Assembly (NCBI RefSeq): GCF_018613935.1
Contig: NZ_JAGGPF010000013.1
Coordinates: 1-64,000, forward strand
DNA length: 64,000 nt
Direction: 5' to 3'
Source: Agromyces sp. ISL-38
GTDB taxonomy: Bacteria; Actinomycetota; Actinomycetes; Actinomycetales; Microbacteriaceae
The position numbers and the translations under genes were made by a program. The notes under the pieces are model-generated. The model worked only from the letters and a program-made list of their open reading frames with translations. It searched no databases and had not been told where the DNA came from. Positions 4,954 to 12,485 of this stretch are shown in pieces (position 1 is the stretch's first letter; each line of letters begins with the position of its first letter).

Positions 4954-7942
<2,989 letters not shown>

Positions 7943-7971
7943 GCGGTTCCGTTCGGGGATCGGGGTCGAGG

Positions 7972-9162
7972 TCAGAGGGATACGGCGACGGCGTCGAGCG
8001 CGTGGCCGAGACGAGCGGCGAACTCGTCGATGTCGTCGTCGTCGATGATGAGCGGCGGCGCCATCCGGATGGTGGAGTCGTTCGCCGCGTTCACGATGAG
8101 GCCGCCGCGCATCGCCTCGGAGACGACTGCCGCGGCGACGGGCTCCGTGAGCGCGATGCCGATGAGGAGGCCGCGGCCGCGCACGCCGGCGACGAGTGGA
8201 GATTCGAGCGCCGCGACCCGCTCGCCGATCTGCCGGCCGCGTCGCGTCGCGTTCTCGAGCAGGCCGGCGCGTTCGATCTCGCCGAGCACCGCGTTCGCGA
8301 CCGCGGTCGCGAGCGGGTTGCCGCCGAAGGTCGAACCGTGCTGGCCCTTCGAGTAGAGGGAGGACGCGTGCCCGAACGTGACGAGTCCGCCGATCGGGAA
8401 GCCACCGCCGATACCCTTCGCGACGGTGATCGCGTCGGGCGTGATGCCGGCGTGCTGGAAGGCGAACCACTCGCCGGTGCGCCCTGCGCCGGTCTGGATC
8501 TCGTCGACGATGAGCAGCGCGCCGTGCCGATGCGTGAGCTCGCGCGCGGTCTCCAGGAAGCCGTCGGGCAGCTCCACGACGCCGGCTTCGCCCTGGATCG
8601 GCTCGACGAAGAGGGCAGCGACCGCATCGTCGATGTTCGCCTCGAGCGCCGCGATGGTCGCGGGGATGTGCTCGACGCCGCCGGGCAACGGCTCGAAGGC
8701 GTCGCGCATGTGCGCCTTGCCGGTGAGTGCGAGCGAGCCCATGGTGCGTCCGTGGAAGCCGTCGATGAGGGAGAGCACGCGGGTGCGTGCGCCACCGGAG
8801 TTGTTGAGGCGGGCGAGCTTGAACGCCGCCTCATTGGCTTCGGCGCCGGAGTTGCCGAACCACACGCGTCCGTGGTCGCCGGCCCCGGCGAGGCGGGTGA
8901 TTCGCTCGGCGAGCTCGAGCGCAGGCTCGGTGGTGAAGTAGTTCGACACGTGGGCGAGCTTCGCGGCTTGCGCCGACACCGCCTCGATGAACACGGGATG
9001 CGCGTGGCCGAGCGCGTTGACGGCGATGCCGGCGAGGAAGTCGAGGTACTCCTTGCCCGTGTCGTCCCACACGCGAGACCCTTGCCCGCGCTCGAGCTTC
9101 GCGAGCGGCATGGCCATCGAGCGCATGAGGCGCCGGTCGAATCGGTCCTGCCAGCCGCTCAT
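7972..9162 (-). CDS. argD: Acetylornithine aminotransferase
   Basis: A PLP enzyme of class III that transfers an amino group from glutamate to N-acetylglutamate semialdehyde to give N-acetylornithine. At 396 aa it matches the family length. The PLP lysine lies in '[12 protein letters not shown]', preceded by the '[14 protein letters not shown]' motif whose Asp contacts the cofactor. The [11 protein letters not shown] segment binds the phosphate. The ATG overlaps the argB stop as ATGA, indicating translational coupling. The same family also serves N-succinyl-diaminopimelate aminotransfer in some bacteria; the operon context argues for the arginine role. Confidence 0.96.
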
Positions 9163-10088
9163 GCGGGCACGACCTCCGTTCCGATGCCGGATTGCGTGAA
9201 CACCTCGAGCAGGATCGAGTGCGGGATCCGGCCGTCGATGATCGCCGCCTTCGCGACCCCGCCCTCGACGGCGTCGAGGCAGGCGCGCATCTTCGGGATC
9301 ATGCCGGATTCGAGACCCGGCAGCATCGTTTCGAGCTCGGGCACCTCGATGACCGACACGAGCGATTCGCGATTCGGCCAATCACGGTAGAGCCCCGCGA
9401 CGTCCGTGAGGATCACGAGCTTGGCCGCGCCGAGCGCCGCCGCGAGTGCGGCTGCGGCCGAGTCGGCGTTCACGTTGAGGGACTGGCCGGGCACGTCACC
9501 GTCGGGCGCGATCGAGGATACGACGGGGATGCGGCCCGCTGCGAGGTCGGCGAGCACCGCAGCAGGATCGACGGAGATCACGTCGCCGACGAGTCCGAGG
9601 TCGACTTCTTCGCCGTCGACGACCGCACCGCGGCGGCGACCGGTGAAGAGACCGGCGTCTTCTCCCGAGAGACCCGAGGCGAGCGGCCCGTGCTCGTTGA
9701 TGAGCGAGACGAGCTCGCGGTTCACCTGGCCCGAGAGCACCATCCGAACCACGTCCATGGTCTCGGGCGTGGTCACCCGGTAGCCGCCGCGGAACTCGCT
9801 CTCGATGCCGAGCCGCGCGAGCATGGCGGAGATCTGGGGCCCGCCGCCGTGCACGACGACGGGCTTGATGCCCGCGTACCGCAGGTAGACCATGTCTTCC
9901 GCGAAGGCACGCTGCAGCTCGGGGCTGACCATCGCGTTGCCGCCGAACTTCACCACGATCGTCTCGCCGTGGAAGCGCTTGAGCCACGGCAGCGAGTCGA
10001 TGAGCACTTGGGCCTTGTCGGCCGCGGTGGCCTGAGCCGTGCCGATATGCTCGGCGGCCTCGATCTGGGTCACGTCGTTCCCGTTCAT
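9159..10088 (-). CDS. argB: Acetylglutamate kinase
   Basis: Phosphorylates N-acetylglutamate with ATP, the usual feedback-controlled step of the cyclic arginine pathway. The 309-aa product has the amino-acid kinase fold signatures: 'VVKFGGNAM' (phosphate loop), '[10 protein letters not shown]' (substrate binding) and '[13 protein letters not shown]'. An N-terminal helix of ~25 residues precedes the core, as in arginine-sensitive hexameric enzymes; sensitivity is inferred. The ATG at 10088 leaves 2 nt after the argJ stop. An alternative TTG at 10094 overlaps that stop as TTGA and would add two residues. Confidence 0.96.
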
Positions 10089-10090
10089 GC

Positions 10091-11242
10091 TCAACTCGCG
10101 TACGCGCTGTTCTCGTGCACGTAGTCGTGCGTGAGATCGTTCGTGCGAATGGTGGCGGATGCCTCACCGGCATGCAGCTCGATGAGCACGTGTGTGGCTC
10201 GTGGTGTGAGGTCGACCTGCTCGCGCGGCGCGTCGGGGCGGCCAGCGTGGCACACGCGGACCCCGTTCATCGAGACGTCGACGAGATACGGGTCGAAGGG
10301 CGCTGTGGTGGTGCCGATCGCGGCGAGCACACGGCCCCAGTTCGGGTCGTTGCCGAAGATCGCGGCCTTGAAGAGGTTGTTGCGCGCGACGGAACGGCCC
10401 ACCTCGACGGCGTCGTCTTCGGTCACGGCGCCGCGCACCTCGATCGCGATGTCGTGGCTCGCGCCCTCGGCATCCGACTGCAGTTGCAGCGCGAGTGACG
10501 CGCATGCGTCGGTGAGCGCGGCCGTGAACGCCTCGAGTGAAGGAGCGACACCCGATGCACCCGAGGCCATGAGGGTGACCTGGTCGTTCGTCGACATGCA
10601 GCCGTCTGAGTCGAGGCGGTCGAACGTGACCCTCGTCGCGGCGCGCAGCGCGGCATCGAGGTCGGTGGCCGCAAGAGCGGCATCGGTCGTGAGCACGACG
10701 AGCATCGTGGCGAGCCCCGGAGCGAGCATGCCGGCGCCCTTCGCGATGCCGCCGATGCGCCATCCGTCGCCCTCGATCGCGATCGTCTTCGGCACGGAGT
10801 CCGTGGTCATGATCGCCCTCGCCGCATCGTCGCCGCCGGTCGCCGAGAGGCGGGCGGCTGCTGAGAGCACACCCTCTTCGACCACCTCGCCGTCGAGCTG
10901 GTCGCCGATGAGCCCCGTCGAGCAGACGAGCACGTCGCCGGCGGCGATGGCGAGGGCGGATGCCGCGGCCTCGGCAGTGCGGTGGGTCACCTGGAATCCC
11001 TCGGGGCCGGTGAAGCAGTTCGCGCCGCCCGAGTTCAGCACGATCGCCGAGACCTGCCCGTCGTCGATCACCTGCTCCGACCAGAGGATCGGGTTCGCCT
11101 TCGCGCGGTTCGACGTGAAGACCGCGGCCGCCGCTTGCGAGGGGCCGCGGTTCACGATCAACGCGAGGTCGAGCGCGCCCGAGCGTTTGATGCCGGCGGC
11201 GATGCCGGCCGCCTCGAATCCGGCGGGAGTGGTGACGGTCAC
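10091..11242 (-). CDS. argJ: Bifunctional ornithine acetyltransferase/N-acetylglutamate synthase
   Basis: Recycles the acetyl group from N-acetylornithine to glutamate and, in bifunctional forms, also makes N-acetylglutamate from acetyl-CoA. The 383-aa precursor contains the autocleavage motif '[14 protein letters not shown]'. By family precedent, cleavage between Ala178 and Thr179 yields alpha and beta chains with Thr179 as N-terminal nucleophile. The GTG start overlaps the argC stop as GTGA. Whether the protein is mono- or bifunctional cannot be told from sequence alone; no separate argA is in the window. Confidence 0.96.
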
Positions 11243-12282
11243 GGGGCGACTCCGTTCACGGGCAATCCGGTGGACTCGACGAGGCCGAGCGCGATGTTCG
11301 CGGACTGGAGGGCGGCGCCGGCAGTGCCCTTCACGAGGTTGTCGACCGCGGCGACGACCACGACCCGGCCGGCCGCCTCATCGATCGCGAGGCCGAGCAG
11401 CGCTGTGTTCGCACCGAGCACGTCGGCGGTGCGCGGGAACTGCCCGGCCGGCAGGAGCTGCACGAAGCGCTCGCCCGCATAGGCGTCTTCCCAGGCGGCG
11501 CGAACCGTAGCGGCATCCGTGCCGGGCACGATGCGCGCCGTCGACGTCGCGAGGATGCCCCGCGACATCGGCACGATGACCGGGGTGAACGAGATCGTCG
11601 GTGCAGCCGCGCCCGCCCAGCGCAGCGCCTGGGTGATCTCGGGGATGTGCCGGTGCACACCGCCCACGGAGTAGGGGTTCGCCGAACCGAGGATCTCGCT
11701 GCCGAGCAGGTGCGCCTTGAGGCTCTTGCCTGCGCCCGAGGGGCCGACGGCGAGCACCGAGACGAGGTCGCGGTCTTCGATGACGCCCGCACGGATGCCG
11801 GGTGCGAGCGAGAGCGCGACGGTCGACGCGTTGCAGCCGGGTGCGGCGATGCGGCGCGTCTTGGTGAGCCGGTCGCGCTGGGTGCCGTGCATCCGCGGCA
11901 GTTCGGGCACGCCGTACGCCCACGCGGGATGGAAGTCGCCGCCGTAGAACTCGGCCCACGCCGCCTCGCTCTCGAGGCGATGGTCGGCGCCGCAGTCGAT
12001 GACGAGCGTCTCGGGCGATAGTTGCGCGGCGATGCCTCCGGACGTGCCGTGCGGCAGTGCGAGGAAGACGACGTCGTGGCCGGCGAGTGTCTCGGCGGTC
12101 GTCTCCTGCAGCGTGAGGTGCGTGTACGTGCGCAAGTGCGGCTGCACCGATACGAGGGGTTGTCCGGCGTTCGAGTGCGCGGTGACCGTGCGCACCTCGA
12201 ACTCGGGATGATCGGCGATGAGGCGCAGGATTTCTCCTCCGGCATAGCCGGACGCGCCGGAAACAGCGACGGAGTACGTCAT
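11239..12282 (-). CDS. argC: N-acetyl-gamma-glutamyl-phosphate reductase
   Basis: NADPH-dependent reduction of N-acetylglutamyl phosphate to the semialdehyde. The 347-aa protein opens with the Rossmann motif '[11 protein letters not shown]', and the catalytic cysteine lies in '[12 protein letters not shown]'. It is the first structural gene of the argCJBDFH operon. AAGGTGG lies 6-12 nt before the ATG. Upstream, on the same strand, is a 35-codon Arg-rich ORF with its own promoter and mutually exclusive hairpins, so expression of the whole operon may be set by attenuation. Confidence 0.96.
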
Positions 12283-12319
12283 GAATCCACCTTAGGGTCT
12301 GAGCGGTCGAGGGATGATC

Positions 12320-12375
12320 CGGCGACGCCCGCGGCAGACGGTCTAGACCGCAGCAGGGGTCGCCGAGATTCGGCG
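12320..12375 (-). promoter_or_regulatory. Possible arginine attenuator structure
   Basis: Three complementary arms lie on the transcript. Arm 1 is CGCCGA (12375-12370), made of Arg codons 26-27 of the leader ORF. Arm 2 is CGGCGAC (12365-12359), which pairs either with arm 1 (together with the adjoining T; 6 bp, 3-nt loop) or with arm 3, GTCGCCG (12326-12320; 7 bp). The loop between arms 2 and 3 holds the palindrome CGGTCTAGACCG (12350-12339) that spans the leader stop codon. There is no U-tract, so control might be at translation or by Rho. GC-rich pairings of this length can also arise by chance. Confidence 0.4.
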
Positions 12376-12450
12376 CTCGCCCCGGCGTCGGCTGCGCACG
12401 AGTGCGGCACGCGAAGCGCGTGCGGCAGTGGCGAACCGAGCGGTGGACAT
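12343..12450 (-). CDS. Arg-rich leader peptide of the arg operon (putative)
   Basis: A 35-codon ORF directly upstream of argC, with nine Arg codons: positions 5, 11, 14, 19, 21, 22, 23, 26 and 27, including three consecutive ones. It is too small and basic to look like an enzyme. A promoter (TTGCGA, 17 bp, TAAGGT) ends 6 nt before its ATG, so transcription should begin on the A of the start codon, giving a leaderless message. Stalling at Arg codons when charged tRNA(Arg) is scarce would free the downstream arms to refold; this mechanism is inferred by analogy with amino-acid leader peptides. Arg is common in random high-GC ORFs, which tempers confidence. Confidence 0.5.
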   Translation of the reverse strand: MSTARFATAARASRAALVRSRRRGERRISATPAAV

Positions 12451-12456
12451 GGAGCG

Positions 12457-12485
12457 ACCTTATCGGCCGTTGAGCAGCTTCGCAA
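12457..12485 (-). promoter_or_regulatory. arg operon promoter
   Basis: On the minus strand TTGCGA (12485-12480), exactly 17 bp, then TAAGGT (12462-12457). The predicted start site coincides with the first base of the Arg-rich leader ORF at 12450. No perfect ARG-box palindrome was recognised around it. Confidence 0.55.

Follow-up and report, generated by a model that had tools for sequence, protein, structure and literature searches.

The arg operon and the region upstream of argC

The window, by which we mean the whole stretch of 64,000 nucleotides from Agromyces sp. ISL-38 that was analysed, carries argC, argJ, argB, argD, argF and argH, in this order, on the minus strand between positions 5580 and 12282 (Table 1). 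The region upstream of argC stands back to back with a gene that encodes a protein of the epimerase family. The encoded ArgC shares 97% identity with its Agromyces albus counterpart, and every one of the 29 best named loci is from Agromyces. In many Actinobacteria argR and argG are located between argF and argH; in the window, neither gene is present at this position. No match to argG was found in the window's assembly (93% complete), while a search of the genus showed the gene in 20 of 21 genomes. The argG genes of Agromyces (L225-L235) are mostly leaderless-looking, with a TAGGCT-like -10 element approximately 7 nt before the ATG. An arginine leader shared with Agromyces argG was considered and rejected: no common Arg-rich leader was seen upstream of argG in 12 loci (one of which, L224, was read from the wrong start).

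Table 1. Features of the argC locus (positions in the window)
Feature	Position	Strand	Basis
-35 element TTGCGA	12480..12485	-	Sequence
-10 element TAAGGT	12457..12462	-	Sequence; 17 nt from the -35, 6 nt before the leader ATG
Leader ORF, 35 codons, 9 Arg (ATG at 12450)	12343..12450	-	ORF listing; position and Arg core conserved
Arg triplet CGA CGC CGG, codons 21-23, proposed stall site	12382..12390	-	CGA-CGC or CGA-CGT there in most relatives' rows shown
Segment 1, CGC CGA (Arg codons 26-27), can pair with segment 2	12370..12375	-	Sequence; pattern across relatives
Segment 2, GGCGACCCC (core GGCGAC), pairs with segment 1 or 3	12356..12364	-	Sequence, alignment, co-variation
Segment 3, GTCGCC	12321..12326	-	Sequence, alignment, co-variation
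Hairpin 2:3, proposed ON structure	12321..12364	-	Fold energy; upper-stem co-variation
Hairpin 3:4, proposed OFF structure	12298..12338	-	Duplex -12.0 kcal/mol; co-variation; ends 4 nt before the Shine-Dalgarno
argC Shine-Dalgarno AAGG	12290..12293	-	SD-like in 43/44 leader rows
argC	11239..12282	-	Pfam semialdehyde dehydrogenase domains; matches in 60/60 genus genomes
argJ	10091..11242	-	PF01960
argB	9159..10094	-	PF00696, amino acid kinase; name from operon position
argD	7972..9381	-	PF00202, class-III aminotransferase; name from operon position; true start downstream of ORF start
argF	inside ORF 7013..8470	-	PF00185, PF02729; true start downstream
argH	inside ORF 5580..7268	-	PF00206, PF14698; true start downstream

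Leader promoter and reading frame

The initial annotation had proposed that ribosome stalling at the Arg codons of a leaderless leader ORF controls this operon. The promoter that it described (TTGCGA-17 bp-TAAGGT, ending 6 nt before the ATG) matches the sequence exactly, and the 35-codon ORF is present with its 9 Arg codons, the three consecutive ones being codons 21-23: a short leader ORF with clustered codons for the end product, as in a ribosome-mediated attenuator. Given the spacing between the -10 element and the ATG, transcription would start at or beside the leader ATG, producing a leaderless transcript. As far as the sequence goes, a -10 element at leaderless spacing before the leader start is what is seen here of a leaderless short-ORF attenuator.

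Relatives were searched with a detector that calls a leader where an ATG or GTG lies 5-8 nt after TAnnnT and begins an ORF of 14-60 codons with at least 5 Arg codons and at least 2 Arg-Arg steps in the last 16 codons. The best 30 loci of 60 genus genomes (window included), together with 80 named relatives, gave 92 distinct argC upstream regions (last 150 nt); 85 of these were positive, the window among them, and 80 remained so when a TTG -35 element (at 15-19 nt spacing) was required as well. The detector called none of 4215 random 400-nt windows from the named related loci (argC upstream regions excluded). Among 4600 surrogates generated from the argC upstream regions with a first-order Markov model it called 5, or none with the TTG -35 requirement. 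Because the 92 regions are biased towards Agromyces and Microbacterium, we added 60 genomes from 58 other Microbacteriaceae genera, picked among the argC matches listed (argC is present in 235 of 249 Microbacteriaceae genomes). The detector was positive in 30 of these 60, only 15 of them with the TTG -35, and leaders were recognized by eye in 34. At the level of sequence, the observation is confirmed and extends well beyond the genus Agromyces. In the 115 leaders detected, the gap between -10 element and start, for which the detector allows only 5-8 nt, is 6 nt in 90, 7 nt in 24, and 8 nt in one.

Arg codons and the use of CGA

The N-terminal residues of the leader vary between genera, and its C-terminal end keeps the Arg codons. 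A typical leader ends with CGA CGC or CGA CGT (sometimes with a further CGN), then 2-3 other codons, then CGC CGA. CGA accounts for 176 of 674 Arg codons in the leaders compared to 42 of 1614 in argC of the same loci; ahead of the leader core it makes up only 5 of 171 Arg codons, and in ten genes of the window 12 of 249.

Codons 2-20 of 33 Agromyces leaders carry no codon-position signature (p 0.96): positional entropy is 0.84, 0.75, and 0.55, such that the third position is not more variable. For this reason we do not claim a selected peptide, and this substitution pattern does not demonstrate translation. It is the RNA and the Arg codons that are conserved and not the peptide. Neither the window leader nor one Microbacterium leader matched Pfam at E-values up to 1, and membership of a known protein family was rejected.

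Part of the codon choice in the leader may serve RNA pairing. The last CGA of the leader pairs in hairpin 1:2 where TCG follows, and in the window GGCGTCG at segment 3 is the complement of CGACGCC in the Arg triplet. Pairing between the triplet and the 5' flank of segment 3 gave a null result when tested, and pairing of the triplet with either this flank or region 4 was rejected for lack of co-variation.

RNA segments and alternative hairpins

The two hairpins of the initial annotation are both present. The 6-bp hairpin formed by two Arg codons is CGCCGA-ATC-TCGGCG (12375-12361, minus strand; hairpin 1:2), and the 7-bp alternative, CGGCGAC:GTCGCCG, proves to be part of a longer structure than was claimed: 12364-12321 folds into one hairpin with an energy of -26.4 kcal/mol (z -3.49), which none of 200 shuffles equals. 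Segment 4, beside the argC Shine-Dalgarno (SD) sequence, pairs with the 5' flank of segment 3, and the resulting hairpin 3:4 overlaps hairpin 2:3 at segment 3, so that the two are mutually exclusive. Two exclusive RNA structures downstream of the Arg codons, as expected for a ribosome-mediated attenuator, are thus predicted computationally.

A pattern for segments 1 and 2 (CGCCGA and GGCGAC, respectively, or close variants) is found at the leader end in 84 of the 92 regions; of the remainder, 5 were skipped as having no credible leader and 3 lack the pattern. Segment 3 (GTCGCC) follows segment 2 by approximately 32-54 nt across relatives. The leader ends either at a TAG immediately ahead of segment 2 (TAGGCGACC) or, if this TAG reads TCG or similar, at a stop some 4-7 codons later. 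Segment 2 is unchanged despite the moving stop codon: what is retained is the RNA, and not the point where the reading frame ends.

The palindrome CGGTCTAGACCG, which had been noted as spanning the leader stop, does exist at that position, but its role as a functional part did not hold: among the loci displayed it occurs in no others than the window and its two closest relatives (L001-L003), which makes it probably incidental, and it was rejected as a component of the attenuator.

Some loci show additional copies of these segments. In certain Agromyces (L017, L024, L028, L045, and L055), the unit from segment 3 to the SD sequence is found in 2-3 tandem copies, as if copies of the switch had been added. 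In some Microbacterium loci (e.g., L078 and L089), the first codons of argC (GTCGCCGTCTCCGGC) are a near-exact repeat of segment 3 and its flank; this repeat may be chance, arising from codons for Val-Ala-Val-Ser-Gly, or a further competitor for segment 2.

Co-variation of the helices

Aligned across 45 sequences, the nine pairs of hairpin 2:3 are formed in 93.1% of cells, compared to 34-68% when the arms are slid against each other. Four of these pairs have changed on both sides, a number reached by 7 of 500 shuffles. An alignment-free test set the duplex energies of cognate arms against those of swapped arms in 5000 permutations; 102 sequences with located segments were dereplicated to 52, and 11 more (L164 included) were dropped when the pattern found no segment. 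Co-variation was strong for the upper 2:3 stem (z -6.2, 0 of 5000 permutations) and was also detected for 3:4 (z -3.7, 3 of 5000). For the 2:3 core it was weak (z -2.2, 69 of 5000), and this test is biased in its favour because duplex energy was used to pick segment 3. Seven control pairings were null (z between -0.9 and +1.4).

Perfect 3:4 runs of at least 6 pairs are not clearly enriched (10 of 52 [19%] cognate versus 10.9% swapped), with a mean longest run of 4.73 versus 4.30. Two loci outside the 52 provide examples: GAGTGGGCG with CGCCCACTC in L164, and GAGACG with CGTCTC in L184. The refuting conditions set by the initial annotation, to the extent that sequence can address them, did not apply: relatives keep the ORF, Arg codons, promoter-to-start spacing, and pairing, and the pairing co-varies.

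Distribution in the family

A covariance model of the segments gave 30 best Microbacteriaceae hits that all lie beside argC. The next 11 (L141-L151) include 10 beside argC and one near a contig end, and none of 12 weak hits (L152-L163) is associated with argC. The two highest scores outside the family, 40.0 and 39.9 bits, have no argC nearby, and occurrence of the element beyond the family was rejected. A second arginine leader in the window's genome was likewise rejected, as none of the remaining hits of the model there rises above noise (34.7 bits at most).

In a tree built from 76 ArgC proteins, the 44 rows with a leader fall on both sides of the deepest split drawn, the tree being rooted at its midpoint only. 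Leader presence requires no fewer than 11 changes, 7 of which are imposed by branches with good support, versus 24.6 in shuffles. An old element lost several times would fit this pattern; repeated gain may be an alternative reading.

In rows without a leader, argC often looks leaderless. A -10 element at 5-9 nt without an SD sequence is found in 20 of 32 leader-less rows versus 1 of 44 rows with a leader, and an SD-like motif in 12 of 32 versus 43 of 44. When leader and SD motif were compared by independent pairs, differing pairs went the expected way but, at 7 pairs, did not reach significance (median p 0.25). L167 and L186, where no leader was detected, have a segment-3-like GTCGCCGCC together with TTAGGGT in the SD position; from these motifs it is possible that they are decayed attenuators whose SD sequence turned into a -10 box.

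Searches for ArgR

Arginine synthesis is the textbook ArgR pathway. ArgR (PF01316, PF02863) was not found in the window's genome, whose assembly is 93% complete, and PF01316 was found in 0 of 249 Microbacteriaceae genomes. Among genomes of the order, ArgR was found in 268 of 297, and the misses listed, 20 of 29, are all Microbacteriaceae; in the search control, 8-9 of 14 control genomes gave a match. The earlier remark that this operon lacks a local argR therefore understates the case, in that no ArgR was detected genome-wide or in the 249 genomes of the family. An operon under ArgR control would have ArgR in the same genome, which was not what we found here. Family genomes that have no leader are likewise without detected ArgR; thus, a leader is not needed in order to lack ArgR, and the element is not a simple swap for it.

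Output at argC

No terminator-like sites were found in the window region. Between segment 3 and argC, the 52 sequences have at most 5 T per 8 bases (4 or fewer in 49 of 52). The GC hairpin with U-tract of a classical transcription attenuator is therefore not seen, and an intrinsic terminator was rejected as the output. Masking segment 2 makes no difference to pairing of the SD sequence (p 0.98). Opening the whole ribosome site costs on average 1.1 kcal/mol more with segment 2 masked, the cost being higher in 24 of 36 sequences (p 0.009). The evidence on SD sequestration by local folding is mixed: SD pairing is the same in both states, and the difference in opening cost is weak. In short, computation finds the sensor and switch features of an attenuator, and not the classical terminator.

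Proposed mechanism and alternative explanations

The ORF, its codons, and both helices are conserved, the helices co-vary, and ArgR was not found. These comparisons support the arginine attenuator of the initial annotation, and we consider it probable that the argCJBDFH operon is controlled by this element as a ribosome-mediated arginine attenuator, with a leaderless leader and with 3:4 as the OFF and 2:3 as the ON structure. The stall, the direction of the switch, and its output are those that we infer as follows. The transcript would begin at the leader ATG and be translated at once. When charged tRNA-Arg is scarce, the ribosome would halt at the Arg triplet, whose first codon is the poorly decoded CGA, and cover segment 1; segment 2 would then pair with segment 3, hairpin 3:4 would be blocked, and argC would be expressed. 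When arginine is plentiful, the ribosome would proceed across segment 2 and reach the stop codon (or, in other genera, stop right at segment 2); alternatively, segment 1 would pair with segment 2. Segment 3 would be freed in either case, hairpin 3:4 would form right before the argC SD sequence, and expression would fall. Candidate outputs of 3:4 are reduced ribosome loading, U-less or Rho-dependent termination, and RNA decay.

The same sensor could operate the opposite switch, with hairpin 2:3 forming after the ribosome has left and repressing argC, and a stall at the last CGC CGA preventing it by covering segment 2. Hairpin 2:3 is indeed the strongest and best conserved, and, counted on the sequence with an assumed footprint, most of segment 2 would be hidden under a ribosome whose A site holds the last CGA. 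However, this last pair is preceded by the Arg triplet with its own CGA, which the ribosome would reach first, hairpin 3:4 also co-varies and needs a role, and there is no U-tract after 2:3; we regard this arrangement as unlikely. We also think it rather improbable, despite being compatible with the attenuator, that argC has a second, leaderless promoter of its own and that the leader controls only part of its expression. The -10 element would be the TAAGGT that we take as the SD sequence, which in the window stands 6 nt before the argC ATG, a leaderless spacing. Such -10 elements are frequent at argC in leader-less rows (the 20 of 32 above), and L211, a row with a leader, has TAAGTT and no SD-like motif. 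The window nevertheless has no TTG -35 at 17 nt, and five rows that lose TA...T keep AAGG or GAGG (L066, L073, L176, L193, and L199).

There is little to commend a leader that is not a sensor at all, in which the ORF feeds ribosomes to argC by re-initiation, or the RNA has another ligand or partner, and the Arg codons follow from a need for CG-rich RNA. One paper proposes that leader ORFs near genes raise translation by re-initiation, including in Actinobacteria (PMC4833913). This reading would also agree with the missing third-position coding signature and with the complementarity between the window's Arg triplet and part of segment 3. Yet the triplet retains Arg and the rare CGA while lying outside the 2:3 and 3:4 helices, it does not co-vary with the 5' flank of segment 3 or region 4, most rows have 60-130 nt between the leader stop and the argC ATG (long for re-initiation), and the best RNA-model hits precede argC, an arginine gene. 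Finally, the inverted repeat GGCGAC...GTCGCC could be a DNA operator for an unknown repressor, as it is near-invariant and no ArgR was found; this is scarcely credible, since the spacing of the repeat varies from approximately 32 to 54 nt, the stem above it co-varies without its sequence being kept, and the Arg ORF is left unexplained.

Relationship to known systems

In Salmonella, CGA pairs in the his leader lead to high de-attenuation (PMC4046918), and in the speF leader (orf34), a tested precedent, pausing at two Arg codons at low arginine allows a hairpin just after the leader stop to form (PMC6386406). The argC leader resembles speF in having consecutive Arg codons in a short leader ORF where a paused ribosome would permit a hairpin downstream of the stop; we also count as a likeness the alternative speF structure at high arginine, in which the ribosome site is inaccessible (PMC6386406). 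It differs in that speF controls ornithine decarboxylase and the argC leader precedes arginine synthesis. The speF leader, moreover, is SD-led, encodes a DUF2618 peptide, and acts via RNase G, Rho, and masking of the ribosome binding site; homology to orf34 was not found, the window leader and the one Microbacterium leader having no Pfam match.

With the trp, his, and Mycobacterium tuberculosis ilvB1 attenuators, the argC leader shares a leader rich in end-product codons and mutually exclusive hairpins before a biosynthetic operon (PMC13236596). Unlike these, which end in a U-tract terminator, it has none. The leaderless polycysteine short ORFs of mycobacteria are reportedly amino-acid-responsive attenuators (work of Canestrari, 2020); they are likewise leaderless Actinobacterial short-ORF attenuators, but concern cysteine rather than arginine and other operons.

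Other 5' leaders control genes in or next to the arginine pathway. Arginine T-boxes are named among RNA controls (PMC1262725), and carA leaders are described in Pseudomonas (PMC4997734) and as the carA motif of beta-proteobacteria (PMC8632094); the latter differ in concerning carbamoyl phosphate, which is shared with pyrimidine synthesis. A survey from 2005 reports that arginine operons of the Actinobacteria it covered are not preceded by conserved RNA structures (PMC1262725). Rfam gave a single match for the window at E-values up to 1, on the other strand and at 15.7 bits versus a gathering score of 49, and 0 matches for 5 relatives, so a T-box or other described RNA family was rejected. Repression by ArgR/AhrC is an end-product control of the same arg genes, from which the argC leader differs in that ArgR was not found in the window's genome or in any of the 249 family genomes. 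A full-text literature search, covering titles and abstract openings and few subscription papers, found no arginine attenuator of a bacterial arg operon and no Microbacteriaceae leaders.

Implications for the Microbacteriaceae

Tentatively, and with slightly less than even confidence, we suggest that the whole family lost ArgR and that its ancestral arginine sensor is an attenuator translated from the first base of the mRNA, which some lineages retain and others, where argC became leaderless, have lost. In this scenario the switch would be U-tract-less, hairpin 3:4 would act on ribosome loading, Rho, or RNA decay, and the rare CGA would set where the ribosome stops.

The leaderless start sets the argC leader apart from the trp and his paradigms, and its CGA codon signature may mark the ribosome stop site. 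The leader is a candidate for an Rfam family, and its natural variants (moved stops, duplicated segments, and losses) would suit the study of U-tract-less attenuation in high-GC bacteria. For the Microbacteriaceae, the finding means that a family without detected ArgR carries a conserved, putatively ribosome-sensing leader at argC in many genera, in which the ribosome itself probably senses arginine.
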